Source of the DNA: an uncultured candidate division Zixibacteria bacterium
GTDB lineage: Bacteria; Zixibacteria; MSB-5A5; GN15; FEB-12
Direction: 5' to 3'
Assembly: GCA_913009765.1 (NCBI GenBank)
Contig: CAJVYT010000027.1
Coordinates: forward strand, 1 to 20,540
Length of the DNA: 20,540 nucleotides
The notes under the pieces were generated by a model. It worked only from the letters and a program-made list of their open reading frames with translations. It had not been told where the DNA came from and ran no database searches. Positions 1 through 13,565 of this stretch are shown here, piece after piece (within the stretch, counting starts at the first letter, position 1; each line of letters opens with the position of its first letter). Made by a program: the position numbers and the translations under genes.

Positions 1-171
1 ATGTAGTCTTTAGACATGTGCAATTGTGGGAGCGTGTCGATCGATTCACCTCTACTTTTTTTATTATTTTTTTTTGTGTTTTTTTTTCTTTTTTTTCTAT
101 TGTTTTTTTTTTTAATGATACGGCGACCACCGAGATCTACACTCTTTCCCTACACGACGCTCTTCCGATCT
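1..171. other. Assembly artefact: low-complexity T tract plus Illumina P5/TruSeq universal adapter
   Basis: Positions 114-171 match, base for base, the 58-nt Illumina TruSeq universal (P5) adapter, from AATGATACGGCGACCACC to CGCTCTTCCGATCT. Positions about 54-113 are an almost pure T tract with scattered errors. Together they are the reverse complement of a read that ran through its insert into the adapter and then into the poly-A signal beyond it. Translating through the junction gives the peptides IRRPPRSTLFPYTTLFRS and TATTEIYTLSLHDALPI in two frames, which are adapter translations rather than proteins. The first ~53 bases have no recognisable identity and may be noise or a chimeric join. 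No gene should be called upstream of 172. Confidence 0.97.
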
Positions 172-1952: not shown

Positions 1953-3881
1953 ATGGCTAAATTCTCTCATACATCTCTCAAAGATTATATCTTCTTATTC
2001 TCTTTTGCCTTATTGATAAGAATCATATTTCTCTTTCAATTTCAGTCTGTTATAATTTTTGATAATCCTGTTGTTGATATGGCATATCATCATAATTGGG
2101 CATTGGCAATTGCAAACGGTAAGCAATTCTATGCCGGACCTTTTTTTCGGGCTCCATTGTATCCTCTGTTTTTAGGCTTTGTCTATTGGCTCTTTGGGGA
2201 ATCATCTTGGATTATTAGAATTATACAGGCAGTTATCGGCTCGGTAAGTTGTGTACTGCTCTATGAAATCGGTCGAGAATTATTTAACCGTAAGACTTCG
2301 GTATTAGCTTCGGTTATTATGGCACTATACGCACCGCTTATATTTTTTGATGCACAGTTGCTGGTTCCAAATTTAGCCATATTTCTGAACCTGATGGCGT
2401 TAGTTTTTATAGTAAGAACACAAACAAAAAATGACCTAAAATCTTATCTTTTGTCAGGACTCTTTTTGGGATTATCGGCAATAGCAAGACCAACGATTGG
2501 GCTGTTTGCTCTTATGCTTATTATCTATTTGGTTTATATCAATAGAAAAAAGATGAAAACTCAGTTAAAAAAAATCGCATTATTGGTTCTTTGCATCTTT
2601 ATCCCAATTTTACCTGTGACAGTGTATAACTATGTACAGAGTTCTGAAATTACGCTTATAGCCGCTTATGGTGGGATTAATTTTTATATCGGCAACTACG
2701 ATAGTGCCGATGGTGTCTCGGCGGTTATCCCTGGCGTGCGTCCTGATTGGCAGGGCGGTAAAGAAGATACCAAACAGATTGCTGAAAAAGAGTTAGGTCG
2801 AACTCTTTCAGAAACCGAGCAATCGGACTTTTGGTTTGATAAAGCGATGGATGATATTTCTGATGACCCTTTGAGATGGGTAGGTTTACTTATTAAAAAG
2901 ATGGGTATGTTAATAAATGGGTATGAGCTGTCAAACAATTTTGATTTTTATTATTTTGCTCATCAGACAACTCTTATGAAGATACTATTACATCGTTCAT
3001 TCTTGTTTTTCCCTTTTGGGCTATTATTTCCACTGGGATTTTTAGGAATCTTTTTATTATCAAAATATGAGAAAAAACATAAGATACTTCTTCTCTATCT
3101 GCTAGCAGCCGCTGTTTCAATAATTTTATTTTTAGTAACAGCTCGTTATAGATTATATATGGTTCCTCCTCTTATATTGTTTGCATCGTACTCTATTTTT
3201 TATTTTAAAAAAAATTGGAGAACTATCTCAAAGCTGAAAATAGGTATCTATGGGATTTTATTTTTAGCATTACTTACAGTTTGTAATGCTGATATGTACG
3301 GATATGCAAAAGCCACAAATGCTCATGGGTTACATACGACTGCGACTCTTTATCAAAAACAAGGCAACATCAGAAAAGCCTCTGAATATTACCAAAAAGC
3401 ACTTGATGCTGACTATAACCAAACTGAGACTCTCAACGACTACGCACTCTTACTTACCTCACAAAAGAAATATGAAAAAGCCGAAAAACTATTATTACAT
3501 GGGTTGACTCTTCCAAACAGTAATTTTATGATGCGTTATAATTTGGGTTATCTGTATTTACAAATATTCCAACCGGAGAATGCCAAAAAGCAGTTTAAAA
3601 AAGTCATTTCTGAAAGACCAAATTATATTTTTGCTCATAACAATCTTGGACTTTCATATATGTGGCTCGGACAACTTGATTCGGCATTGATGGTGTATTA
3701 TAATTTGATAAAAATAGAACCGTCATTTACCGAAAGCTATTATAATGCAGGTTTGATTTGGCTGGATAAAAAAGCAGCTGATTCTGCCGAGTTCTACTTT
3801 CGGAATTTTTTAGACCATAATCCCTCAAATACTCCTCAGATAGAAACTTCCACACATTTGCTGGACTCATTAGAGCAGTAA
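1953..3881 (+). CDS. GT39/ArnT-PMT-like membrane glycosyltransferase with C-terminal TPR domain
   Basis: A 642-residue polytopic membrane protein. Residues 1 to about 445 contain roughly ten to twelve hydrophobic segments with GT39 features: an acidic residue in the first periplasmic loop (DNPVVDMAYHHNWA, D42 the likely catalytic base), GPFFRAPLYPLFLG after it, and ARYRLYMVPPLILF near the last membrane segment. Such enzymes move a sugar from a polyprenyl-phosphate donor to a lipid or protein acceptor on the outer side of the inner membrane. From about residue 460 to the end there are four to five tetratricopeptide repeats (for example ASEYYQKALDADYNQTETLNDYALLL and FAHNNLGLSYMWLGQLDSAL), a protein-binding scaffold probably on the periplasmic side. 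The Shine-Dalgarno before the chosen ATG is poor. Donor and acceptor cannot be told from sequence. Confidence 0.85.
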   Translation: MAKFSHTSLKDYIFLFSFALLIRIIFLFQFQSVIIFDNPVVDMAYHHNWALAIANGKQFYAGPFFRAPLYPLFLGFVYWLFGESSWIIRIIQAVIGSVSCVLLYEIGRELFNRKTSVLASVIMALYAPLIFFDAQLLVPNLAIFLNLMALVFIVRTQTKNDLKSYLLSGLFLGLSAIARPTIGLFALMLIIYLVYINRKKMKTQLKKIALLVLCIFIPILPVTVYNYVQSSEITLIAAYGGINFYIGNYDSADGVSAVIPGVRPDWQGGKEDTKQIAEKELGRTLSETEQSDFWFDKAMDDISDDPLRWVGLLIKKMGMLINGYELSNNFDFYYFAHQTTLMKILLHRSFLFFPFGLLFPLGFLGIFLLSKYEKKHKILLLYLLAAAVSIILFLVTARYRLYMVPPLILFASYSIFYFKKNWRTISKLKIGIYGILFLALLTVCNADMYGYAKATNAHGLHTTATLYQKQGNIRKASEYYQKALDADYNQTETLNDYALLLTSQKKYEKAEKLLLHGLTLPNSNFMMRYNLGYLYLQIFQPENAKKQFKKVISERPNYIFAHNNLGLSYMWLGQLDSALMVYYNLIKIEPSFTESYYNAGLIWLDKKAADSAEFYFRNFLDHNPSNTPQIETSTHLLDSLEQ

Positions 3882-3922
3882 TTGGAATATTGTGTAAATC
3901 CAATATCGTCAATAAATTTCAC

Positions 3923-3953
3923 TTGACATTTTTTGTAAGAATTTGCTTATTAG
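3923..3953 (+). promoter_or_regulatory. Probable sigma-70-type promoter of tRNA-Arg
   Basis: A perfect TTGACA (3923-3928) lies 19 bases before TATTAG (3948-3953), which would start transcription a few bases upstream of the mature tRNA 5' end. The spacing is longer than ideal, so the -10 assignment is tentative. Confidence 0.5.
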
Positions 3954-3964
3954 AAAACTCAAAT

Positions 3965-4038
3965 GCGCCCGTAGATCAATTGGATAGATCGTCTGACTAC
4001 GGATTAGAAGGTTGAGGGTTCGACTCCTTCCGGGCGTA
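3965..4038 (+). tRNA. tRNA-Arg, anticodon ACG
   Basis: A 74-nt cloverleaf. The acceptor stem GCGCCCG pairs with CGGGCGT (one G-U at the first pair) and leaves discriminator A. The anticodon arm TCTGA-CTACGGA-TTAGA places ACG at positions 34-36, read as ICG after deamination, for CGN arginine codons. The T arm contains GGTTCGACTCC. No 3' CCA is encoded, so it must be added enzymatically. A run of Ts follows at once and probably ends the transcript. Confidence 0.96.
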
Positions 4039-4148
4039 TTTTTTTTAATCATGATCGACTAACTACTTACAATTTTATCTTATTATTATATCTACATTTG
4101 AATATATGTTTCTTTATTTGGTATATATAATAAACAAAGGAGAAAAAT

Positions 4149-4313
4149 ATGTCAGGAGCCAGTGCAATCGCTGCTGCTATTGCTGCTAAAAAGAAACGTG
4201 AAAGACAGCAAAAAGAGGAAGAAATTATGACCAAATACAGTGCTGAAGATTTAGACGGATGGAAATTTACACTTGCAGGTCGCAGTTCCGATTCTATAAA
4301 AATACAATCGTGA
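4149..4313 (+). CDS. Small Ala/Lys/Glu-rich protein, 54 residues, probably C-terminally truncated
   Basis: A short ORF with a near-perfect Shine-Dalgarno (AAAGGAGA, 5-6 bases before ATG) and AT-rich promoter-like sequence upstream (TTGAAT at 4098, TATATA at 4122). The product begins MSGASAIAAAIAAKKKRER, continues as a charged helix, and reaches MTKYSAEDLDGWKFTLAGRSSDS before stopping. From memory, small bacterial proteins of unknown function share this layout (an Ala-rich start, a basic/acidic helix, then a DL.xxWEFKI-type motif) but are about 80-90 residues long and end with a basic segment. Here the frame ends soon after the Trp motif and the DNA turns at once into hairpin repeats. The ORF is therefore probably a truncated remnant, or a very short variant. 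Function unknown. Confidence 0.5.
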   Translation: MSGASAIAAAIAAKKKRERQQKEEEIMTKYSAEDLDGWKFTLAGRSSDSIKIQS

Positions 4314-4593
4314 GAAACCCGACATTGTTGTGGCAGACGTTCTCGTCTGCCAATCTTCAATCACATTCATTATACTGGAAGACATTGGTTGTGTTTATTT
4401 TCATGGCGTTAGGACTAGACTCCGTGGCAAACACGGAGAGGAGTTCGGTGGTTTTTTTGTAGGGAACATACATGCCTGTTCCTCATGAAAGGTTGAGGCA
4501 TGCCTCAGCCCTACAATTGTTTCCCCGAGTGGAATAAAGTGTGTGAAAAAACTGACCCTTTCCGTTTAGGCGGACTCAGGGTGACAGACAATA
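4314..4593. repeat. Gene-free stretch made of palindromic dispersed repeats
   Basis: No coding frame has support here. Hairpins follow one another: TGGCAGACG/CGTCTGCCA with a 4-nt loop (4331-4352), CTCCGTG/CACGGAG (4420-4438), a branched TTGTAGGG...CCCTACAA element (4457-4516), and CTCAGGGTGACA near 4575, whose minus-strand reading GTCACCCTGAG recurs at about 14948. The second and third also have relatives near 15260-15450. The stretch separates the truncated small ORF from the minus-strand citryl-CoA lyase operon. Confidence 0.75.
4457..4516. repeat. Branched palindromic repeat, TTGTAGGG/CCCTACAA type, copy 1
   Basis: An outer 8-bp stem TTGTAGGG/CCCTACAA encloses two inner hairpins: an imperfect GGAACA...TGTTCC and TGAGGC/GCCTCA. 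Copy 2 at 15294-15354 has the same outer stem, the same inner layout and almost the same length, with differences mainly in the inner arms and loops. Confidence 0.8.
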
Positions 4594-4627: not shown

Positions 4628-5395
4628 TTATTTTATTTCCCGTTCGTCGGGACCGTCATAATCAAATGGAAGTGGTCCAAGTTTTCGCATTGGTTTTTCA
4701 CGAGTCTTTTCTTCATAGGCATGAGCAATGAGTCCGGGAACTCGTGAAATAATGAAAAATCCTTTGCCAAGCTGCCAATCAAAACCCATGTCAGAAATAA
4801 CAGCAGCAATAGCACCGTCAACATTGATAGGAAGTTGTTTTCCTGTTTTTTCAGCAAGGGTGGATTCTATCGCTTTACACAGTTCTATATGTTTCCCCAA
4901 ATAGCCATGTCTGTCAGCTATCTCAAAAAGTTTTGCAGTACGTGGGTCAACTTTGTGTAGCCTGTGTCCAAAGCCCGGCATTCTTCTTTTGTTTTCTTTG
5001 AGCCAGTCGACCAATTCAGAAGCTGTTGATACGGCATCTTTACCTTTAGCAGCCCATTCCTGCATAATTTTTGCTGATTGTTCTATTGCTCCCCCATGAG
5101 TGTCTCCAATAACCAAGACACCGCCTGCAACGGCAGCATTAAGCGAGTTTCCCCCTGACATGACAGTACGAGCACCCAAGACAGACGGCGGAGTCGCACC
5201 ATGGTCTATTGAGGCAACCAAAATAGCATTCATCAGTTCTGCTTCAGCTTGAGAAGGAAGTTCACCTTTGAGAATTAAATAGACTGTTTCGGCATAAGAG
5301 AGGTTCTCCATTATGTCAGTAATATTGTACCCTTTGACATGGATCTTACCGGGTTCAATTTTCGTTATAGCTGTTTTCCAATTTCCTGATGACAT
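4628..5395 (-). CDS. Citryl-CoA lyase-like protein (citrate synthase superfamily)
   Basis: A 255-residue member of the citrate synthase fold that lacks the N-terminal part of full-length citrate synthase (about 370-430 residues). The superfamily's catalytic set is visible: H100 in GDTHGGA, H144 in GFGHRLHKVDPR, and D193 in NVDGAIAA, with SRVPGLIAHAYEE (R218) near the end. Stand-alone proteins of this size resemble citryl-CoA lyase of Hydrogenobacter and the C-terminal domain of ATP-citrate lyase. They cleave (S)-citryl-CoA to oxaloacetate and acetyl-CoA. AGAGGT precedes the ATG. It is the second gene of a minus-strand operon, 18 bases after the lipoprotein. No citryl-CoA synthetase is in the window, so citrate cleavage is inference; many such proteins are uncharacterised and may act on other acyl-CoA lyase or condensation reactions. 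Confidence 0.85.
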   Translation of the reverse strand: MSSGNWKTAITKIEPGKIHVKGYNITDIMENLSYAETVYLILKGELPSQAEAELMNAILVASIDHGATPPSVLGARTVMSGGNSLNAAVAGGVLVIGDTHGGAIEQSAKIMQEWAAKGKDAVSTASELVDWLKENKRRMPGFGHRLHKVDPRTAKLFEIADRHGYLGKHIELCKAIESTLAEKTGKQLPINVDGAIAAVISDMGFDWQLGKGFFIISRVPGLIAHAYEEKTREKPMRKLGPLPFDYDGPDEREIK

Positions 5396-5413: not shown

Positions 5414-6259
5414 CTACTTTTTTTTCTTCATTGCTTGGCGAATAACCCTCAGCCAATCTTTTTCCAACGTATCCAAATTTATATTGCAAATAGTTTGGAT
5501 TGTCGGCTCAAATTCACGTGGTGATTCATATAGTAATTTAAAATTATCAATACCATATTTATAAATAAAATAGTCTATAAAAGAAGCAGCCTCGGCAGAC
5601 TGATACGCTTCCGCATTGTAATTAACCCTCGTATCCTTGATTAAATCCTGAAGATAAATAAACTTTGTTGAATCTATGAATGAAAGTGTCGTTACATGAT
5701 AATTACGTCCTGACGCATCAAGCAAACGCAAAATACCATGGTATAAAAACTTATACTGCGAATCAATTTTAGTCCACTGTTTTAATGCATACATAGCAGC
5801 AGTAATACCCAGCCTATTCCCGGGCCAGTAGTAAATGGAATCACCACGAACTGTCGGAAATTCTGAGTTCGCCAAATCCTGTCCCTGTCCAAAACCTGTG
5901 TAATAAAATATTGTGATTGAATCGGTCGGCTCCGGTAATCTGAAAAATTGGAAATCTCGTCGTAAAACTGTTTTATATATTTGGGCGTAATCCTGCATCT
6001 TCTCAGTAAATGGATGCCCTTCAGGAAAGATAATTTTAATATTTTTATATTGAGCTGTCGACCAAGAATCATAATCATATGTTTTGGCAGTATCAACATA
6101 CACTGTTGTATCTTGTATGTTATTAAAAGAAATTTGAGGTGAAGCAGGCTTCACTTTTTGCGTTTCTTTTTTAGAACTACAAGCCCCTAAAAGCAAAAAA
6201 ATGACAAATAACAATATATTAGGCATACATGATTTCAAAGAGACACTCATTTTCTTCAT
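5414..6259 (-). CDS. Lipoprotein with degenerate gluzincin (peptidase MA-like) features
   Basis: A 281-residue predicted lipoprotein. MKK, a hydrophobic helix and the lipobox LLGAC (C27) are followed by SSKKE, which fits export and N-terminal lipidation. The mature part has IKIIFPEGHPF, a beta-rich middle, and a C-terminal SAEAASFIDYFIYKYGIDNFKLLYESP...LEKDWLRVI stretch. That stretch resembles the end of peptidase MA/gluzincin domains, where the Y-x-YG-x-x-x-x-x-L-L and final W are typical. The expected HExxH zinc site is absent; the nearest candidate is FLYHGILRLLD, so enzymatic activity is doubtful. It is the first gene of the operon with the citryl-CoA lyase-like gene, downstream of a good promoter. 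A second Met three codons on is an alternative start; no clear Shine-Dalgarno is seen. Function unknown. Confidence 0.8.
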   Translation of the reverse strand: MKKMSVSLKSCMPNILLFVIFLLLGACSSKKETQKVKPASPQISFNNIQDTTVYVDTAKTYDYDSWSTAQYKNIKIIFPEGHPFTEKMQDYAQIYKTVLRRDFQFFRLPEPTDSITIFYYTGFGQGQDLANSEFPTVRGDSIYYWPGNRLGITAAMYALKQWTKIDSQYKFLYHGILRLLDASGRNYHVTTLSFIDSTKFIYLQDLIKDTRVNYNAEAYQSAEAASFIDYFIYKYGIDNFKLLYESPREFEPTIQTICNINLDTLEKDWLRVIRQAMKKKK

Positions 6260-6323
6260 AAAAATTTTATAATTAATACATATACAAAAAAGTACAATTT
6301 ATTTAAAGCAAACATGTTTGGAA

Positions 6324-6352
6324 AATATACATAGGAATCTCACATGAGTCAA
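6324..6352 (-). promoter_or_regulatory. Sigma-70-type promoter for the lipoprotein/citryl-CoA lyase operon
   Basis: Read on the minus strand, TTGACT (6352-6347) is followed after exactly 17 bases by TATATT (6329-6324), each five of six to consensus. Transcription would begin near 6317, giving a leader of about 57 bases. Confidence 0.7.
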
Positions 6353-6387
6353 ATTTATTCTTTACGTTATTTTTTTCACAAACTGAC

Positions 6388-6416
6388 TTGACTTCATTGA
6401 GAATTTTGGCGATATT
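6388..6416 (+). promoter_or_regulatory. Probable promoter of the nine-gene oxidoreductase operon
   Basis: TTGACT (6388-6393), 17 bases, then GATATT (6411-6416). The transcript would start near 6423, with a leader of about 90 bases before the GTG start at 6517. It lies about 35 bp from the divergent promoter, so a single regulator could act on both. The -10 is only four of six to consensus. Confidence 0.5.
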
Positions 6417-6516
6417 TGAACCAAGACTAATTTGAGGGTCTTTAGTATGCTGTAGAGAAGCCGAATTTGATGTGGAATACAGAAAACACTTTAAATTAGA
6501 TACATAAGGTACAGCA

Positions 6517-7239
6517 GTGTTGACGGATAGTCGCTTACAAAAATGGGACTCACCCCATATTAAAAAATCTATAAATATCATTGTCGGCGGGTATGGCTCC
6601 GGGAAATCGGAAGTTTCGGTAAATTTGGCGAGACATCTTGTGCTTGACAGTTCTTTTACGGCTCGTCCTATTTCAATTTTAGATTTAGATATTGCCAATC
6701 CTTATTTTCGTTCCCGTGAAGCATCAGCCGAACTTGAAAAACTCGGTATCTCCCCTATCAATCCTGAGGGAGCACAGTTTTATGCAGACCTTCCGATAAT
6801 TCTTCCTCAAGTAAGAGGAACTATTGAGACTGCAGAGGGTACAATTATCTGTGATGTCGGAGGAGATGATGTAGGTGCGAGAGTTTTGAGTTCCTTGGGA
6901 ACATCATTTGATACCTCTACGTATGATATGCTGCTTGTATTGAATGCCAACCGTCCTTTCACATCAGACCTTGCCGGCAGCCTAAAAACGATTGCTGAAA
7001 TAGAATCAGCATCAAGATTACAATTTACAGGTATAATATCAAACACCCATATGATGGATGATACCGATGAAGAAGTTGTCATGCGAGGAATCAAATTATC
7101 AAAAGAAGTAAGTAAACAGACCGGCTTAAAACTGTTTTTTGTTTCAGCCGAACAAAAGATTTTGGATAAAATAAATAGAGCAAACATAGACATTCCGGTT
7201 TTACCCCTAAACCGATCGCTTTTAAAGCCCTGGGAGTAA
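6517..7239 (+). CDS. MinD/CobQ-like P-loop ATPase, first gene of the oxidoreductase operon
   Basis: A 240-residue P-loop NTPase. Walker A is GGYGSGKSE (24-32), followed by VNLA and the switch-like ILDLDIANPYFRSRE (54-68) found in MinD/ParA/CobQ-type ATPases. The Walker B-like strand is IICDVGGDDVGARVL (110-124), and FTGIISNTHM supplies the NxH/NxD base-recognition region. An in-frame stop 9-12 bases before the GTG fixes the start at 6517 or the adjacent TTG at 6520; AAGGT lies 6 bases upstream. The gene leads an operon of iron-sulfur and thiamine enzymes, so a role in assembling, maturing or positioning the complex is suggested, by analogy with MinD-like Nbp35/ApbC scaffolds. It lacks the C-terminal CxxC of ApbC. 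Specific function not established. Confidence 0.8.
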   Translation: MLTDSRLQKWDSPHIKKSINIIVGGYGSGKSEVSVNLARHLVLDSSFTARPISILDLDIANPYFRSREASAELEKLGISPINPEGAQFYADLPIILPQVRGTIETAEGTIICDVGGDDVGARVLSSLGTSFDTSTYDMLLVLNANRPFTSDLAGSLKTIAEIESASRLQFTGIISNTHMMDDTDEEVVMRGIKLSKEVSKQTGLKLFFVSAEQKILDKINRANIDIPVLPLNRSLLKPWE

Positions 7240-7263
7240 AACAAAAAAAGAAAAGGAACCTAT

Positions 7264-7497
7264 ATGCCCGGCGTAATAATAGATAAAAATCATTGTAAAG
7301 GATGTGAACTCTGTGTGAGAGCATGCCCCCAAGATATTCTCCGAATGTCAAAGACAATCGGAGTGAAGGGGTATTTCTATGCGGAGATGGTTGACAGTTC
7401 TAGATGTATCGGCTGTCAGCTTTGTGCGATAACCTGTCCCGATGTAGCAATAGAAGTTCATACTCATGGAACTTTATTTGCTCTTTTCGAATATTAG
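7264..7497 (+). CDS. 2-oxoacid:ferredoxin oxidoreductase, delta (ferredoxin) subunit
   Basis: A 77-residue two-cluster ferredoxin. CKGCELCVRACP (C11, 14, 17, 21) and CIGCQLCAITCP (C48, 51, 54, 58) bind two [4Fe-4S] clusters. It fits the delta subunit (KorD/VorD type) that carries electrons from the thiamine/Fe-S core of a four-subunit oxidoreductase to external ferredoxin. AAAAGGAA precedes ATG. The alpha subunit follows after 17 bases with its own strong Shine-Dalgarno. The order delta-alpha-beta-gamma is the usual one for this class. Confidence 0.93.
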   Translation: MPGVIIDKNHCKGCELCVRACPQDILRMSKTIGVKGYFYAEMVDSSRCIGCQLCAITCPDVAIEVHTHGTLFALFEY

Positions 7498-7514
7498 GCA
7501 CAAGGAGAAAAATA

Positions 7515-8603
7515 ATGGCTAAAATACTTATGAAAGGTAACGAAGCAATTGCTGAAGCTGCTATCAAAGCAGGTGCCACCAATTATTTTTGTTACCCAAT
7601 AACTCCACAGACAGAAGTTGCCGAATATCTCGCAAAGCGGATGCCGGAAGTCGGCGGTGTTTTTTTACAGGGTGAATCAGAACTTGCTGTTGCGAATATG
7701 CTTTTTGGAGCAGCCTCAACCGGAAAACGAGTTTTTACAACATCCTCTTCCCCCGGAATTTCTTTAATGCAGGAAGCAATTTCCTATATGGCAGGTGCCG
7801 AACTTCCATGCGTTATTGTAAATATCATGCGCGGCGGTCCCGGACTGGGCGGAATTTTACCGGCACAGTCTGACTATTTTCAATCAGTCAAAGGAGGCGG
7901 GCATGGTGATTACAGATTACTTGTACTTGCCCCATCAACGATTCAGGAAGCTGTTGACCTTATGATGCTTTCATTTCACTTGGCGGATAAATACAACAAT
8001 CCGGTTATGATGATTGGTGACGGTATGATTGGTCAGATGATGGAACCGGTAGAATTTCCTGACACATACGAAGAACCTGAACTGCCTCCAAAAACATGGG
8101 CAATAACCGGAGCCAAAGGAAGAAAACCAAAAATTATTAAGTCTCTCTTTTTAGACCCATACAAACTTGAAAAAAGCAGTTGGCATCTGCACGCTAAATA
8201 TGAATTGATGAAAAAAGACGAAGTACGATTTGAAAAATATAAAGTTACTGATGACAATGAAATCATGATAGTAGCTTATGGTACGACAGCTCGTATTTGT
8301 CAGACTGCAATTGATGCGTTGGAAAAAGACGGTGTCTCGGTTGGGCTTTTTCGCCCTATTACTCTTTTCCCCTTTCCTCAAAATGCTATCTATACCGAAG
8401 CGACAAAAAAAAATATAAAAAAAGTTTTAGTCGTTGAAATGAGTACCGGTCAAATGGTTGAAGATGTAGAACATGCTATTGTAGGCAAGAAAAAAGTCTC
8501 TTTCTTTGGTCGTACCGGTGGAGTGGTGCCATCTCCTGAAGAAATTGTTAAAAAGATAAAAGATATGGTACCAAAAAAATCTAAATCGAAAAAGAAAGCA
8601 TGA
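7515..8603 (+). CDS. vorB: 2-oxoacid:ferredoxin oxidoreductase, alpha subunit (VorB-type)
   Basis: A 362-residue alpha subunit. The frame is open further upstream, but AAGGAG (7502-7507) just before ATG at 7515 and the family N-terminus MAKILMKGNEAIAEAAIKAG set this start. Diagnostic stretches are YPITPQTE (27-34), GGVFLQGESELAVANM, SSSPGISLMQEAISYMAGAELPCV and MRGGPGLGGILPAQSDYF, then the transketolase C-terminal-like domain (EIMIVAYGTTARI). These match the family annotated as 3-methyl-2-oxobutanoate (2-ketoisovalerate) dehydrogenase VorB more closely than classical KorA, though substrate calls between Vor and Kor are unreliable. With beta it forms the thiamine-diphosphate site that decarboxylates a 2-oxoacid to acyl-CoA and passes electrons to [4Fe-4S] clusters. 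It ends in a Lys/Ser tail and overlaps or abuts the beta gene. Confidence 0.93.
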   Translation: MAKILMKGNEAIAEAAIKAGATNYFCYPITPQTEVAEYLAKRMPEVGGVFLQGESELAVANMLFGAASTGKRVFTTSSSPGISLMQEAISYMAGAELPCVIVNIMRGGPGLGGILPAQSDYFQSVKGGGHGDYRLLVLAPSTIQEAVDLMMLSFHLADKYNNPVMMIGDGMIGQMMEPVEFPDTYEEPELPPKTWAITGAKGRKPKIIKSLFLDPYKLEKSSWHLHAKYELMKKDEVRFEKYKVTDDNEIMIVAYGTTARICQTAIDALEKDGVSVGLFRPITLFPFPQNAIYTEATKKNIKKVLVVEMSTGQMVEDVEHAIVGKKKVSFFGRTGGVVPSPEEIVKKIKDMVPKKSKSKKKA

Positions 8604-8611
8604 GGTCGGAT

Positions 8612-9376
8612 ATGAACAATAATTCAAAAACATTATTTGCCCGACCGGAAGCAATGACCGATGTAGTCACACACTACTGCCCCGGATGTACTCATGGAAT
8701 TATACATAGACTAGCAGCCGAAGCGATTGATTCATTGGGTATCAGAGAAAACACTGTAGGTGTCGCTCCTGTAGGATGTTCGGTTTTGGCATATAATTAT
8801 TTTAACTGTGATTTTTTGGAAGCCCCTCATGGACGAGCTCCGGCAATAGCGACCGGTTTCAAGCGGCTCCGCCCTGACATGATAGTCTTTACCTATCAGG
8901 GAGACGGTGATTTAGTCTCTATTGGTATGAGTGAAATTATGCATGCTGCCAACCGCGGTGAAAAACTGACCGCTATATTTGTCAATAATGCCATCTACGG
9001 TATGACCGGGGGTCAGATGGCACCGACTACATTACAGGGTCAGATTACTTCCACTTGCCCTTCAGGAAGAAATTTGGAAAGTACCGGATATCCGATTAGA
9101 ATGGTGGAACTTCTTTCGGGGTTAGTTACACCGATGTATTTAGAAAGAGTTTCAGTTCATTCTCCTCGGCATGTCATACAGGCAAAAAAAGCTATCCGTA
9201 AAGCATTTGAATATCAGATAGCCAATAAAGGCTTCTCATTAGTTGAAGTACTCTCAACCTGTCCGACGAACTGGGGTCAGACTCCTAAAGAATCAACAGA
9301 ATGGCTTGAGGGAAATATGCTTCCGTACTATCCTCTTGGATGTTTCAAAGATTCATTTGCCAAGGAGGAAAAATAA
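8612..9376 (+). CDS. 2-oxoacid:ferredoxin oxidoreductase, beta (thiamine diphosphate-binding) subunit
   Basis: A 254-residue TPP-binding subunit. HYCPGCTHG (21-29) gives the CxxC iron-sulfur ligands with later cysteines, and GDGDLVSIG (97-105) followed by NNAIYGMTGGQ (125-135) is the Mg-diphosphate site. EAPHGRAPAIATG and the CPTNWG near the C-terminus are typical of the beta subunit of Kor/Vor enzymes. The start at 8612 is preferred because GAGGT lies 5 bases before it; an ATG at 8600, overlapping the alpha stop, would add four residues. The stop shares one base with the next start (TAATG), so translation with gamma is probably coupled. Confidence 0.92.
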   Translation: MNNNSKTLFARPEAMTDVVTHYCPGCTHGIIHRLAAEAIDSLGIRENTVGVAPVGCSVLAYNYFNCDFLEAPHGRAPAIATGFKRLRPDMIVFTYQGDGDLVSIGMSEIMHAANRGEKLTAIFVNNAIYGMTGGQMAPTTLQGQITSTCPSGRNLESTGYPIRMVELLSGLVTPMYLERVSVHSPRHVIQAKKAIRKAFEYQIANKGFSLVEVLSTCPTNWGQTPKESTEWLEGNMLPYYPLGCFKDSFAKEEK

Positions 9377-9945
9377 TGGAACAATATGAAGTAACCATAG
9401 CGGGATTTGGCGGACAGGGAATTATGACTGCAGGGCAACTGCTTGCCTATTCGGGAATGAATGAAAATAAAAAAGTAATCTGGCTCCCTTCGTATGGACC
9501 GGAAATGCGCGGCGGAACCGCTTACTGTACAATAGTCATCTCAGACGTAAGAATAGGTTCACCGATTATTAACACACCCACCGGAATTTGTGTTTTCAAC
9601 AGACCATCGTTTGATAAATTTGAATCAAAAGTAAAACCGGGAGGATTGTTAATTGTTAACTCATCGCTCATTAATGTTTTATCCAAGCGAGAGGATATCG
9701 ACCAACTTTTAATTCCCGCCAATCAAATGGCATTAGACGCAGGCAACCCTAAAGTAGCAAACATTGCCGTTATCGGTGCCTTTATCGGTGCTACCGGAAT
9801 TTTAAAATTAAAAACGATTGAAAAAACTCTCACGCAAAAACTCGGTCACAAAAAAGAGATGCTTGAACTAAATAAACAAATTTTAAAAACCGGTTATGAG
9901 TTCGCTAAGAAAAATCTTGTAAAAGCGAAGAAGGTCTCAGCATGA
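9376..9945 (+). CDS. 2-oxoacid:ferredoxin oxidoreductase, gamma subunit
   Basis: A 189-residue gamma subunit. GFGGQGIMTAGQLLAYSGM near the N-terminus, SYGPEMRGGTAYCTIVIS and CVFNRPSFDKF are the family's conserved stretches. This domain binds CoA or shapes its access in related pyruvate:ferredoxin oxidoreductases. The frame is open 12 codons upstream, but AAGGAGGA directly before ATG 9376 gives one of the strongest ribosome-binding sites in the window. The C-terminus is basic (KKNLVKAKKVSA). It overlaps the NuoE-like gene by four bases (ATGA), so the oxidoreductase and NADH-linked halves form one translationally coupled unit. Confidence 0.92.
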   Translation: MEQYEVTIAGFGGQGIMTAGQLLAYSGMNENKKVIWLPSYGPEMRGGTAYCTIVISDVRIGSPIINTPTGICVFNRPSFDKFESKVKPGGLLIVNSSLINVLSKREDIDQLLIPANQMALDAGNPKVANIAVIGAFIGATGILKLKTIEKTLTQKLGHKKEMLELNKQILKTGYEFAKKNLVKAKKVSA

Positions 9946-10397
9946 AACATAACTTTGAAAATTTACACACCATTTTTGATAATCATCCAAAATCACAGGA
10001 ATCACTTATTGCTATACTGCAAGACATTCAAAAAGAATATCAGTATCTTCCATGTGAAGCATTAGAGGAAACCTCAAAATTTCTCGATGTACCGTTATCG
10101 ACAGTTTTTTCGGTTTCGACATTTTATAATTCATTTTCTCTCACGGCAAAAGGTGAAAAAATAATTAAAGTATGTACCGGCACTGCCTGTCATATTCGTG
10201 GGGCAAAACTTTTGCAAGAGCAGCTTGAGAATCATCTTCATATCAAAGCAGGCGAAACAACCGAAGATATGAAATTTACCCTTGAAGTGGTTGCTTGTGT
10301 TGGTGCCTGTGCGATGGCACCGGTTGTTGTTGTTGATGACAAATATCACGGCTCGGTAAAAGTATCCAAAGTAAAAAAACTGTTAAAGGCGAAATAA
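9942..10397 (+). CDS. NuoE/HydC/BfuC-like [2Fe-2S] subunit
   Basis: A 151-residue thioredoxin-like [2Fe-2S] protein of the 24-kDa complex I/HydC type. Four ligands are in place: C78 and C83 (CTGTAC) and C119 and C123 (CVGAC), following the helical LIAILQDIQKEYQYLP and the VFSVSTFYNSFSL segment typical of the family. It normally sits against the NuoF-like flavin subunit and holds a side cluster in bifurcating enzymes. The start overlaps the gamma-subunit stop by four bases, and the NuoF-like gene starts one base after this stop. Being fused into a Vor/Kor operon rather than a nuo operon, it is not respiratory complex I. Confidence 0.92.
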   Translation: MKHNFENLHTIFDNHPKSQESLIAILQDIQKEYQYLPCEALEETSKFLDVPLSTVFSVSTFYNSFSLTAKGEKIIKVCTGTACHIRGAKLLQEQLENHLHIKAGETTEDMKFTLEVVACVGACAMAPVVVVDDKYHGSVKVSKVKKLLKAK

Positions 10398-10398
10398 G

Positions 10399-12252
10399 AT
10401 GCAAATATCAAATGTAAAAGAACTCAATAAGATAAAAAAAGAGTGTCTCGCCACACAGAAAGAACATCCAAAAAAAGTGTTGGTCTGCTGCGGTACGGGA
10501 TGTATTGCCAATGGTGCTTTAAAAATCGTTGACTCGGTTCGGGATGGTTTAGCAAAACGGAAATTAAAAGATGTTTCGGTTGAGATTTTAAAAGAAACCG
10601 GATGTCATGGTTTTTGTGAGTTAGGACCTTTGGTTATTATCGAACCGCAGGAAACATTTTATACAAAAGTAAAACCAAAACATGTTGATGATATTTTAGA
10701 TAAATCATTTCTGAAAAATGAAGTTATCGAACCGCTTCTGTTCACCAATCCTATTGACGGTTCAAAGATTACAAAATATAACGACATTTCATTTTTCAAA
10801 CATCAACAGCGGATTGCATTGCGTAACCTCGGTAAAATTGCTCCCCATGAGATAAGAGAATATATCGGCGTTGACGGCTATCAGGCACTTGCGAAAGTTT
10901 TATTTAAAATGAGTCCTGATGAAATTGTTGATGAAATCAGTAACTCCGGTTTACGCGGACGCGGCGGAGGCGGATTCTCAACCGGCAGAAAATGGAAAAT
11001 TTGTAAAAACATCAAAGCCGACAAACATTATGTTATCTGCAACGGTGACGAGGGTGACCCCGGAGCATTTATGGACCGTTCTATTATGGAAGGCGACCCC
11101 CATGGTGTCTTAGAAGGCATGATGATTGCTGCTTATGCTATTGGTGCCAAAGAAGGATATATATATGTTCGTGAGGAATATCCTTTGGCGGTGAGACATC
11201 TTGAAAAAGCTATTTTAGATTGTGAACGGTCAGGCTTGCTTGGTGAAAATATTTTAGGTTCTGATTTTTCATTTACAATTAAGATTGCCCGCGGTGCAGG
11301 AGCTTTTGTATGCGGAGAATCGTCGGCTCTGATGAAATCTGTAGCGGGTGAAGTTGGTGAACCACGAGCAAAATATATTCGCTCGGTTGTCAAAGGTCTT
11401 TATGACCAACCGACTGTTCTCAATAATGTCGAAACATTAGTAAATGTACCGACAATTATTCGTAATGGTGCCGACTGGTATAAATCTATCGGAACGCCAA
11501 AAAGTACGGGTACAAAAGTTTTCTCATTAGTCGGTAAAGTACGCAATACCGGACTGATTGAAGTTCCGATGGGTATCACTCTCAGAGAAATAATTTATGA
11601 CATCGGCGGTGGGATTTTAGACGACCGTCCTTTTAAAGCTGTACAAACCGGCGGTCCATCCGGCGGATGTATCCCTGAAGCAATGCTTGATTTACCGGTT
11701 GATTTTGATTCGCTGACTGAGGTCGGCTCTATGATGGGTTCCGGCGGTTTGATTGTTATGGATGATAAAACCTGTATGGTTGATGTTGCCAAATATTTCC
11801 TTGCATTTTTAGTTGAAGAATCTTGCGGAAAATGCACACCATGCCGTGAAGGTTTGTATCAACTGCATAAACTTCTTGAAAAAATATGTGCCGGAAAAGG
11901 CGAGATGTCTGACATTGAAAAGATGGAACGTCTTTCTGAAAATGTTATAATCGGCTCTCTTTGCGGTTTGGGCAAATCAGGTCCGAATCCTTTGATGAGT
12001 ACGCTTAAGTATTTTAAAGATGAATATATTGCTCATATAAAAGATAAAAAATGTCCGGCGGGTGTTTGTCCTGAACTTATTACCTATAAGATTTTAGATA
12101 ACTGTACCGGATGTATGGCGTGTATCCCTGCCTGTGGATATGATGCAATAACCGGTAAGAAAAAAGAAATACATGTTATCGCCCAAGATAAATGCACCAA
12201 ATGCGGTGCTTGTTATGCTGTCTGTAACTTTGAAGCGATTTTAGTAAGTTAG
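10399..12252 (+). CDS. NuoF/HydB/BfuB-like FMN and NAD(H)-binding subunit
   Basis: A 617-residue flavin subunit with the full HydB-type architecture. An N-terminal thioredoxin-like [2Fe-2S] domain (C30 or C31, C35, C69, C73) is followed by the NuoF core: GLRGRGGGGFSTGRKW (184-199) for NADH/FMN and CNGDEGDPGAFMDR (214-227). Then come GGPSGGCIPE (418-427), SCGKCTPCREG with C476, C479, C482 and C522 for the [4Fe-4S] cluster near FMN, and CPAGVCPEL. Two C-terminal ferredoxin clusters close it (C569, 572, 575, 579 and C599, 602, 605, 609). Respiratory NuoF (about 430 residues) lacks both end domains, whereas electron-bifurcating HydB/BfuB has them. It should exchange electrons between NAD(H), the FMN and ferredoxin. 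The next gene follows after 8 bases behind TAGGAG. Confidence 0.93.
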   Translation: MQISNVKELNKIKKECLATQKEHPKKVLVCCGTGCIANGALKIVDSVRDGLAKRKLKDVSVEILKETGCHGFCELGPLVIIEPQETFYTKVKPKHVDDILDKSFLKNEVIEPLLFTNPIDGSKITKYNDISFFKHQQRIALRNLGKIAPHEIREYIGVDGYQALAKVLFKMSPDEIVDEISNSGLRGRGGGGFSTGRKWKICKNIKADKHYVICNGDEGDPGAFMDRSIMEGDPHGVLEGMMIAAYAIGAKEGYIYVREEYPLAVRHLEKAILDCERSGLLGENILGSDFSFTIKIARGAGAFVCGESSALMKSVAGEVGEPRAKYIRSVVKGLYDQPTVLNNVETLVNVPTIIRNGADWYKSIGTPKSTGTKVFSLVGKVRNTGLIEVPMGITLREIIYDIGGGILDDRPFKAVQTGGPSGGCIPEAMLDLPVDFDSLTEVGSMMGSGGLIVMDDKTCMVDVAKYFLAFLVEESCGKCTPCREGLYQLHKLLEKICAGKGEMSDIEKMERLSENVIIGSLCGLGKSGPNPLMSTLKYFKDEYIAHIKDKKCPAGVCPELITYKILDNCTGCMACIPACGYDAITGKKKEIHVIAQDKCTKCGACYAVCNFEAILVS

Positions 12253-12260
12253 GAGTATAG

Positions 12261-13037
12261 ATGATTCATATAACTATAAACGGAAAAGTTGTTCAGGCTC
12301 AAGAGGGTGAGATGCTTCTTACAGTCATTCGCCGTGAACAAATTGATATTCCCACTCTCTGCCATCACGAAGCAGTGGAACCGTCAGGTGCCTGCCGCTT
12401 ATGTATGGTCGAGATTACAAAACCTGAATGGGACGGCTGGTGCGATTATGTTACCTCGTGCCTCTACCCTGCCGCTGATGGACTGATAGTTAATACTCAT
12501 GCTCCAAAAGTGAATGAACTCAGGTCTTCAATTTTAGATTTGTATTTAGCACGTCATCCAAAATCGCCTGAGATTCGTCAGCTTGCCGCTGAGTATGGAG
12601 TGCTTAAGACACAGTTTGAAGAAATTGTTGACGGTAATAATTGTATCTTGTGCGGTATCTGTACTCGTATCTGTGATACGATGGGATTCCATGCTATCTC
12701 TATGGTTGGACGGGGACACGGAAAAGAAGTCGCTCCGCCACTCAACATGGCACCTGAAGCATGCGTAGGCTGTTTGTCATGTGCTAAAAATTGTCCGACA
12801 AATTATATCGAATATAATATGTCAAACGGCAGATTGACTATCTGGGAAAAAGATTTCGAGATGATTGCCTGCAAAGAATGCGGCAAGACAACCGTCACCA
12901 AAGAATTTGCTGAATACTTGAGCAAAAATAGAGATATTCCGTATGACTATTTTGAAAAATGTGACGAGTGCCACCGTAAAGAACTCGCCACCACAATGGG
13001 ACGAATTTCTAATTGGGATAGAGAGGCAAGATCATGA
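12261..13037 (+). CDS. NuoG-N-terminal/HydA-N-terminal/BfuA-like iron-sulfur subunit without H-cluster domain
   Basis: A 258-residue electron-transfer subunit. A plant-type [2Fe-2S] domain (C34, C45, C48, C67) is followed by the NuoG-G region, whose usual His-Cys3 cluster is missing: around ARHPKSPEI only the His remains and the three cysteines are replaced. Two [4Fe-4S] sites follow (C128, 131, 134, 138 and C168, 171, 174, 178). The C-terminus adds CKEC (204-207) and CDEC (234-237), possibly a zinc or extra Fe-S site. The protein stops there: the [FeFe]-hydrogenase H-cluster domain of HydA and the molybdopterin domain of NuoG are absent. It matches the BfuA-type bridging subunit. It overlaps the next gene by four bases. 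Confidence 0.88.
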   Translation: MIHITINGKVVQAQEGEMLLTVIRREQIDIPTLCHHEAVEPSGACRLCMVEITKPEWDGWCDYVTSCLYPAADGLIVNTHAPKVNELRSSILDLYLARHPKSPEIRQLAAEYGVLKTQFEEIVDGNNCILCGICTRICDTMGFHAISMVGRGHGKEVAPPLNMAPEACVGCLSCAKNCPTNYIEYNMSNGRLTIWEKDFEMIACKECGKTTVTKEFAEYLSKNRDIPYDYFEKCDECHRKELATTMGRISNWDREARS

Positions 13038-13468
13038 ACCATAGATTTATTGTAAAACCTGAACTCTGCACCGGATGCCGTTCTTGTGAATTAGCCTGTT
13101 CATTTACTCATGCTATTGACGGTGTTCGTACGTTGACTCGTATCTCTCCAATAGACGGCGGTTTTAAAGATTTATGGGTACCGGTTACCTGTTTACAATG
13201 CGATGATGCCGCCTGTATAAAATCATGTTTGGTCAACGCACTCAAACGTAATCCTGTTACGGGTGCTATTGAACTGAACCATGAAATATGTGTAAACTGT
13301 ATGGCATGCGTAGCAGCCTGTCCATTTGGATGTGCTATCTTGGATACTCAAACAGATTTGATAGTAAAGTGTGACTTGTGCGGAGGCGACCCTGCCTGTG
13401 CTCACTTCTGCCCTACTAAGGCACTCGAATGGAAACCGATCGCAAAGGCTGTTAAGAAGACAGGGTAG
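13034..13468 (+). CDS. Four-cluster polyferredoxin (HycB/CooF/AOR small-subunit type)
   Basis: A 144-residue protein with four [4Fe-4S] motifs arranged as in DmsB/HycB/CooF proteins: C12, 15, 18, 22; C53, 56, 61, 65; C86, 89, 92, 96; C113, 116, 122, 126. The second and fourth have the longer internal spacing typical of this class. Such proteins are the electron-transfer partners of large catalytic subunits (molybdenum or tungsten oxidoreductases, CO dehydrogenase). In bifurcating Bfu complexes a small subunit of this kind joins a tungsten enzyme to the core. Here no large subunit follows: the operon ends in a strong terminator. It may instead link the 2-oxoacid oxidoreductase to the NADH-linked core. 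Confidence 0.88.
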   Translation: MNHRFIVKPELCTGCRSCELACSFTHAIDGVRTLTRISPIDGGFKDLWVPVTCLQCDDAACIKSCLVNALKRNPVTGAIELNHEICVNCMACVAACPFGCAILDTQTDLIVKCDLCGGDPACAHFCPTKALEWKPIAKAVKKTG

Positions 13469-13475
13469 GATTAAT

Positions 13476-13544
13476 TTTGTAGGTCAGAACCCTTTAGTGG
13501 TTCTGACAAAGAATTCGTTGGGCAGGTCTCGCTTTTGAGACCTG
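13476..13544. repeat. 69-bp direct repeat, copy A (two hairpins)
   Basis: Identical over all 69 bases to copy B at 14868-14936. Hairpin one is GTCAGAACC/GGTTCTGAC (13483-13491 with 13499-13507, loop CTTTAGT). Hairpin two is the terminator-like GGCAGGTCTC/GAGACCTGCC. This copy serves as the 3' end of the oxidoreductase operon, starting 7 bases after the stop codon. Confidence 0.97.
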
Positions 13545-13552
13545 CCTTTTTT
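13521..13552 (+). terminator. Intrinsic terminator of the oxidoreductase operon
   Basis: GGCAGGTCTC (13521-13530) pairs perfectly with GAGACCTGCC (13537-13546) around GCTTTT, followed by six Ts. It lies inside and just beyond the 69-bp repeat, so the operon's terminator is supplied by the repeat itself. Confidence 0.92.
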
Positions 13553-13565
13553 ATATACGTGTTGC

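Follow-up and report, generated by a model that had tools for sequence, protein, structure and literature searches.

A conserved gene cluster predicted to join a 2-oxoacid:ferredoxin oxidoreductase to a Wor-Bfu-like core in Zixibacteria

The cluster and its parts

The window analysed here is a 20,540-nt stretch of contig CAJVYT010000027.1 (assembly GCA_913009765.1) from an uncultured Zixibacteria bacterium (FEB-12). Nine open reading frames (ORFs), all on the + strand, span positions 6517-13468 and place the four subunits of a 2-oxoacid:ferredoxin oxidoreductase (OFOR) directly upstream of BfuC, BfuB and BfuA, with a polyferredoxin at the end. We consider it likely that the cluster encodes one soluble bifurcating enzyme, here called Vor-Bfu, made up of BfuABC, the polyferredoxin and VorABCD. 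A preliminary description of this DNA had proposed such a gene cluster; all nine ORFs were found again, and the families were borne out by Pfam and NCBIfam.

The first ORF (6517..7239; 240 aa) encodes a P-loop NTPase with a SIMIBI-class fold. It is followed by VorD (7264..7497), the delta subunit with two [4Fe-4S] motifs (Pfam and NCBIfam), by VorA (7515..8603, ATG start), the alpha subunit, and by VorB (8600..9376), the beta subunit, which matches TPP_enzyme_C and carries the thiamine diphosphate site and one [4Fe-4S] cluster. VorC (9376..9945), the gamma subunit, has a POR domain and scores 92.9 bits with TIGR02175 (cut-off 81.1). The second half of the cluster opens with BfuC (9942..10397), a NuoE/HydC-like protein by Pfam with one [2Fe-2S] cluster, C1. 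BfuB (10399..12252) is a HydB-like NuoF with a flavin mononucleotide (FMN) and nicotinamide adenine dinucleotide (NAD(H)) site and the ligands of clusters B1-B5, as judged by Pfam and alignment to solved chains. BfuA (12261..13037) is a short NuoG/HoxU-like protein with one [2Fe-2S] and two [4Fe-4S] clusters, and the polyferredoxin (13034..13468), with four [4Fe-4S] clusters, is a WorS homologue whose best solved match is 9mqx_E.

The ORFs are tightly packed. Adjacent genes overlap by 4 bases at alpha/beta (8600-8603), gamma/BfuC (9942-9945) and BfuA/polyferredoxin (13034-13037), and by 1 base at beta/gamma (9376). The other junctions have spacers of 1 (BfuC/BfuB), 8 (BfuB/BfuA), 17 (delta/alpha) and 24 bases (P-loop/delta). 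Of the single promoter and single terminator in the same description, only the terminator stood: an intrinsic terminator at 13520..13555 (+), with a 12-bp stem and a T run, forms a strong hairpin at 13520-13547 (-21.5 kcal/mol, z -4.76) that was equalled by none of 200 shuffles. The promoter scan gave 37 promoter-like sites compared to 26.8 +/- 6.5 in shuffles, and no single promoter could be called above chance.

VorA exceeded the curated cut-off of the VorB subfamily NF005507 (540 vs 399 bits) and scored 112 bits with PorA_Arch. Note that the name VOR (2-ketoisovalerate:ferredoxin oxidoreductase) is the label of the subfamily model, and activity on branched-chain 2-oxoacids is predicted from that name. 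The cluster ligands of the oxidoreductase are well conserved: the 8 Cys of VorD are kept in 37/37 alignment rows, and in VorB Cys 27, 30 and 60 are kept in 38/38 rows and Cys 221 in 57/57 of those covering them.

BfuB combines PF01512 (Nuo51), PF10531 (SLBB), PF10589 (NADH_4Fe-4S) and Fer4 in one protein, with an N-terminal thioredoxin-like [2Fe-2S] domain and two C-terminal [4Fe-4S] motifs. Both Pfam and the solved-chain alignment agree here with the preliminary description, which had assigned to this NuoF-like protein the extra N- and C-terminal Fe-S domains of HydB/BfuB. The alignment with solved bifurcating HydB/BfuB chains is near full length, the best being 9mqx and the NiFe enzyme 7t2r. 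In Schut et al. 2022 (PMC9304861), the ligands of the B2 cluster are given as C438, C476, H525, C531 and C536, and the His is described as a feature of bifurcating BfuB that non-bifurcating homologues lack. Mapped through the 7t2r alignment, these correspond to Cys459, Cys497, His546, Cys552 and Cys557, and all five are present in the BfuB of the window. We then aligned 66 rows, made up of the window sequence and those relatives of its type that reached at least 840 bits. Cys459, His546, Cys552 and Cys557 are kept in 66/66 rows, whereas the fifth ligand, Cys497, is Cys in 26/66, a position also described as variable in PMC9304861. Cys479 (B1) is kept in 63/66 rows, and none of the eight C-terminal cluster Cys varies. 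Moreover, the four C1 Cys of BfuC are kept in 60/60 rows, and the ligand sets of BfuA in 57/57.

Residues 4-244 of the 258 of BfuA align with 9mqx_A. Since BfuA is without a catalytic domain, electrons must come from other subunits. The stretch from Cys67 to Cys128 contains no other Cys. The protein fits the Type 2 Bfu, which are without the extra HydA clusters and are fed by added subunits; the identity of the missing lettered clusters is a putative assignment, as is the feeding of BfuA by Vor. The coupling of NAD(H) and ferredoxin to a third substrate that marks the Bfu family is a prediction for the window enzyme.

The P-loop NTPase lies within the span of the preliminary description but was left undescribed there. 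It has a weak ParA/NUBPL profile match, and its AlphaFold2 model (pLDDT 85.6) finds its best folds among the signal recognition particle GTPases (TM ~0.56), so the predicted structure places it at the level of the SIMIBI class only. Its family is large (6979 matches), and some sources name its close relatives CbiA. A maturation factor dedicated to Vor-Bfu is one possible role.

Conservation, co-occurrence and ancestry

A BfuB scan of GTDB genomes was made and the best 80 loci were examined. Fourteen of these are of the window kind, from Zixiibacteriota, GN15, a 'Calditrichaeota' metagenome-assembled genome (same phylum set) and one Smithella; with a search of 132 phylum genomes and the fetched neighbourhoods, the total came to 68 distinct loci. 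Wherever the contig extended far enough, a gene was scored as present if it lay within 8 kb on the same strand; gene order was read separately. Twelve duplicates of L001-L014 were left out of the count, together with L015, L016 and L021 (above 800 bits, outside the Vor clade), and L151 was admitted at 747 bits.

Counted in this way, VorC and BfuC were present at 60/60 loci, VorB at 38/39, VorA at 37/38, VorD at 37/38, the P-loop gene at 35/36, BfuA at 59/60 and the polyferredoxin at 57/58, and the complete nine-gene set is visible at 33 loci. All missing genes trace to L012 and L150, both interrupted by runs of 100 N; in L012 the second half of the cluster lies elsewhere on the same scaffold, likewise ending at an N run. 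As far as the contigs extend, the gene set is thus kept together across the 68 loci, with exceptions only at assembly gaps. The preliminary description had raised the alternative that Bfu genes usually lie apart from Vor genes, and the pairing of VorC with BfuC at every locus with room speaks against it.

Only one genome outside the phylum was found with Vor-Bfu, Smithella PtaU1.Bin162 (L009/L112), where the cluster reflects either transfer or a binning error. Another VOR of this genome stands without Bfu, and its VorA match holds a stop. Among 155 genomes of Smithella's order, the window BfuB type occurs in this one Smithella alone (70% identity; the next match has 60%; E <= 1e-230).

Within the phylum, we searched the 132 genomes with VorA (E <= 1e-60; window type at least 67% identity, fragments included) and with BfuB (window type at least 63% identity, among the matches listed). 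VorA of the window type was found in 78 genomes, BfuB of the window type in 69 and both in 67. In the 11 genomes with VorA only, BfuC comes next in nine and the other two end inside VorB; of the nine, eight hit contig ends, and the ninth (L165) is complete, though its BfuB is broken into two frames. In the two genomes with BfuB only, the contig begins inside VorB (L008) or inside BfuB (L148). Thus, 12 of the 13 discordant genomes run into contig ends and the remaining one has BfuB in two frames.

A second, stand-alone VOR type (47-55% identity) is present in 32/132 genomes, none of which has VorA or BfuB of the window type. Nine of these 32 genomes were inspected. Eight had room downstream, none with Bfu genes there, and eight had room upstream, none with the P-loop gene. 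One inspected locus has an unrelated ferredoxin match (40 bits) on the opposite strand, ~5 kb away. In two genomes of the phylum, the beta and gamma subunits of the stand-alone VOR lie in one open frame (L167:5417-6931, -, and L169:6451-8499, +).

The preliminary description also suggested that the thiamine enzyme may itself be the catalytic module, and offered a strictly co-occurring tungsten or hydrogenase large subunit encoded elsewhere as the alternative. The tungsten aldehyde oxidoreductase domain (AFOR_C) was found in 0/14 host genomes, while control genomes were positive in 5/14. The FeFe hydrogenase domain (Fe_hyd_lg_C) was over cut-off in 3/14: Smithella has four matches (179-349 bits), and G007 and G012 one each (80 and 87 bits). 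The FeFe genes of G007 and G012 probably belong to a separate Bfu set, since ~0.9 kb away lies another BfuB type that shares 48-49% identity with that of the window. A hidden FeFe hydrogenase or tungsten aldehyde oxidoreductase partner elsewhere was rejected on these counts, in a search that did not extend to [NiFe], formate or other modules. No strict co-occurrence was therefore seen in the 14 genomes, and gene linkage, the co-occurrence of VorA with BfuB and the two domain counts support the thiamine enzyme as the likely catalytic module of a predicted Bfu enzyme. The second BfuB and its FeFe-hydrogenase-domain gene (428-433 aa frame) lie at G007:C1:3112371-3115743 and G012:C1:207862-211237.

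For BfuB, BfuA and the polyferredoxin alike, the closest solved relative is a chain of 9mqx; in the case of the polyferredoxin, 8c0z_C, a subunit of an aldehyde oxidoreductase, comes close behind 9mqx_E. We take 9mqx to be the Wor-Bfu of A. mobile, since the names of its chains and the subunits it contains agree with PMC13328260, a 2026 paper on tungsten enzymes that prints no code in the sections consulted. Compared with the S subunits of four Wor-Bfu loci, the polyferredoxin shows 35-40% identity and shares every one of the 16 cluster Cys, and these 16 ligands are kept in 57/57 rows of its own alignment. The earlier guess that the polyferredoxin bridges the two halves is supported by this homology to WorS. 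At the four Wor-Bfu loci an aldehyde oxidoreductase-like protein stands beside BfuCBA, with 240-263 bits at three of them, below cut-off, and 59 bits, in pieces, at L033.

In trees of BfuC+BfuB+BfuA the window group and Wor-Bfu come together with 100/99 support in both samplings (33 rows, and 41 rows including Por-Bfu of Syntrophales); in the earlier tree from which the groups were named, the two join at 93. Por-Bfu, the pyruvate oxidoreductase counterpart described below, was tried as the direct parent, and one clade with Por-Bfu was rejected on the concatenated trees (p 0.0017; p 0.0007 without L021/L043).

Outside the cluster, the window holds a citryl-CoA lyase-like gene at 4628-5395 (-), divergent from the cluster (NF004869, 312 bits); several relatives have genes of similar size and position. 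Window positions 139-171 are an exact 33-base match to what we take to be the Illumina adapter pattern, which suggests that the window opens with an artefact of assembly.

A predicted bifurcating enzyme and its alternatives

The proposal of a single enzyme builds on the gene content, the conserved neighbourhood and co-occurrence, the core ligands, the homology to solved relatives and the grouping with Wor-Bfu. In the proposed reaction, VorABCD would oxidise a 2-oxoacid (branched-chain by family name) with coenzyme A (CoA) to acyl-CoA and CO2, giving two electrons per turn. These would pass from the thiamine site to the beta cluster, to VorD, to the polyferredoxin in the role of the S subunit, and on to BfuA. 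BfuA would pass them to the FMN of the BfuBC core and on to the B2 and C1 clusters, where NAD+ and ferredoxin would be reduced together. The potentials table of PMC9304861 puts the 2-oxoacid couple near -500 mV. Averaging the electrons of ferredoxin and NADH would hinder reduction of such a couple, and oxidation would therefore be favoured.

The OFOR-Bfu variant is real and conserved, is probably a single enzyme, and is apparently built on a Wor-Bfu-like scaffold. A wider account is put forward more tentatively, at somewhat less than even chances: a complete thiamine 2-oxoacid oxidoreductase would have taken the place of the tungsten subunit on a Wor-Bfu-like chassis (BfuABC plus S), independently of Por-Bfu, displacing the ordinary VOR in most of the phylum. 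Oxidation of (branched-chain) 2-oxoacids would then give NADH and reduced ferredoxin only together, in a fixed ratio, and OFOR-Bfu would have arisen at least two times, plus a fused form in Actinomycetota.

Several points weigh against these proposals. VOR alone can reduce ferredoxin, and bifurcation is therefore not needed thermodynamically. The groups of the clade test were named after the first tree had been seen, the Wor sample has four rows, two of them long, and a tree of BfuA only leaves the grouping with Wor or Por unresolved. The AlphaFold2 model of the polyferredoxin is poor (pLDDT 58.6), and the models are of single chains only. FeFe domains do occur in three host genomes, and the partner search covered neither [NiFe] nor formate modules. 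Finally, both co-occurrence patterns are clustered in the genome list and may therefore rest on few evolutionary events, confined to one phylum and one Smithella genome.

The complex could also be one that does not bifurcate, comparable to phenylglyoxylate:NAD+ oxidoreductase. Its Bfu part would hand VOR electrons to NAD+, and to ferredoxin whenever that is present, with no strict coupling of the two. By the potentials table of PMC9304861, the 2-oxoacid couple could reduce either acceptor, the wiring resembles that of PadI, and the NCBIfam name is that of an NADH-linked 2-oxoacid enzyme. We judge this unlikely, however: the B1-B5 and C1 ligands, including the bifurcation His, are kept in every covering row, bar Cys479 and Cys497 with the counts given above, and Wor-Bfu, with an equally low-potential donor, is reported in PMC9304861 to reduce neither acceptor alone. 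Running the enzyme in reverse, as a reductive carboxylase in which NADH and reduced ferredoxin supply the electrons to make the 2-oxoacid from acyl-CoA and CO2, would match the gluconeogenic use that Schut et al. suggest for Por-Bfu, yet elsewhere they argue for pyruvate oxidation. The mixing of ferredoxin and NADH electrons would lower the driving force for a couple at ~-500 mV, which makes this direction very improbable.

Alternatively, the operon could encode two enzymes, a normal VOR that reduces free ferredoxin, and a separate BfuABC-S that would use this ferredoxin and NADH with some other third substrate. The VorC/BfuC junction is indeed a boundary between modules that are separate elsewhere, in Wor-Bfu and in stand-alone VOR. 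Against this, the two genes lie together wherever there is room (60/60), AFOR_C is missing from all 14 host genomes and FeFe domains appear in three, two of them near a different BfuB. The WorS-like subunit would be left without a donor. Other lineages also join OFOR to Bfu, one by gene fusion, and we give the two-enzyme explanation little credence.

If a single bifurcating Vor-Bfu is correct, one enzyme fixes the NADH:ferredoxin ratio of a catabolic step in an uncultured phylum. Vor-Bfu puts to the test the idea of the Bfu core as a plug for unrelated catalytic heads. The same S-BfuABC scaffold with a tungsten head in one lineage and a thiamine head in another would be a natural experiment, with the stand-alone VOR as built-in control.

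Comparison with Por-Bfu, Pad, HydABC and Wor-Bfu

The preliminary description listed hydrogenase, tungsten, formate and NADPH modules as the only known Bfu partners. This list was too short: Schut et al. 2022 (PMC9304861) add CO, F420, benzoyl-CoA and others, and predict Por-Bfu, four pyruvate oxidoreductase subunits plus BfuABC, as an uncharacterised enzyme. The concept of OFOR-Bfu is therefore already in print; the window cluster differs from Por-Bfu in its VOR-type enzyme, its two extra genes and its Bfu subunits, which group with Wor-Bfu. The main text of that paper contains none of the terms 'Zixi', 'polyferredoxin', 'isovalerate' and 'fusion'; its supplementary tables (clades 35/44/45) were outside this check. 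By title and start of abstract, no description of the Vor-Bfu variant or of the actinobacterial fusion was found in the literature, and the parts consulted of a paper on Hydrogenedentota (PMC11406978) make no mention of the variant.

Por-Bfu is found at 8 of the best 80 loci of the BfuB scan, one of them fused (L058), and at 10/12 inspected neighbourhoods of Syntrophales, the order of Smithella. Like the window cluster, which has the same content of four OFOR subunits and BfuABC in a putative single operon, Por-Bfu loci have the OFOR subunits directly upstream of BfuC-BfuB-BfuA and a short BfuA without catalytic domain. In contrast, their subunit order is gamma-delta-alpha-beta, their BfuABC belong to another branch, and alpha is PorA-like in the two tested, with PorA_Arch as best model, below cut-off (L015: 459 bits, and 121 bits with the VorB subfamily). 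No polyferredoxin or P-loop gene was seen in 10 inspected Por-Bfu stretches, one of which is cut off upstream, leaving nine with room for the P-loop gene.

In the fused form from Actinomycetota, a single 1050-aa ORF (L058:11824-14976, +) comprises a BfuA-like N-terminus, an Nfn/GltD-like NAD(P)-flavoprotein, ferredoxin clusters and PorB. The fused gene comes after PorC, PorD, PorA, BfuC and BfuB at 7/7 inspected loci (L058 and L194-L199) and is present in 9/18 genomes of its order, three of them partial. Of the 120 matches listed out of 1368, 106, the protein itself included, align over at least 98% of its length. In the L058 BfuB, 20/21 checked ligands are kept, Cys497 being Ser. The arrangement of the locus points to an enzyme that works with pyruvate, NADP(H), NAD(H) and ferredoxin. 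The fusion covalently ties the OFOR beta subunit to the BfuA-like part, and so supports the principle and not the window complex itself.

Other Bfu sets seen in the survey involve HdrA. In a Thermoplasmata archaeon (L031:12088-15327, +), a 1079-aa frame combines BfuA with an HdrA-like protein, and another HdrA-like gene lies upstream of BfuC, which may represent a possible Hdr-Bfu. In L191, from Syntrophales, BfuCBA (BfuB at 2484-4418, -) has an HdrA-like gene upstream (5687-8584, -) instead of Por, and L192 has a similar BfuCBA layout.

Pad, the phenylglyoxylate:NAD+ oxidoreductase, likewise wires a 2-oxoacid oxidoreductase to NAD(H), and its PadI joins a polyferredoxin like gene 9 to a beta subunit like VorB: the PadI profile matches our polyferredoxin in its first 143 positions (90 bits) and VorB further on (47 bits). 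Like the actinobacterial fusion, it bears on the predicted electron path. The acceptor subunit of Pad is a different flavoprotein, and to our knowledge Pad has no Bfu core. A literature search on phenylglyoxylate found nothing. With the bifurcating HydABC hydrogenases, the window shares a BfuB that is homologous near full length with its cluster ligands kept; unlike in HydABC, BfuA is without the H-cluster domain.

Wor-Bfu is the sister of the window group in the BfuCBA tree. In PMC13328260, three WorSL units form [4Fe-4S] nanowires into one ABC plug, and one operon order is given as WorCBASL. As in these operons, where BfuCBA is followed by the S subunit, BfuCBA in the window is followed by the polyferredoxin. 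The difference lies in the catalytic head: WorL is absent from the window cluster, as AFOR_C is from the 14 host genomes, and the VOR stands in its place.

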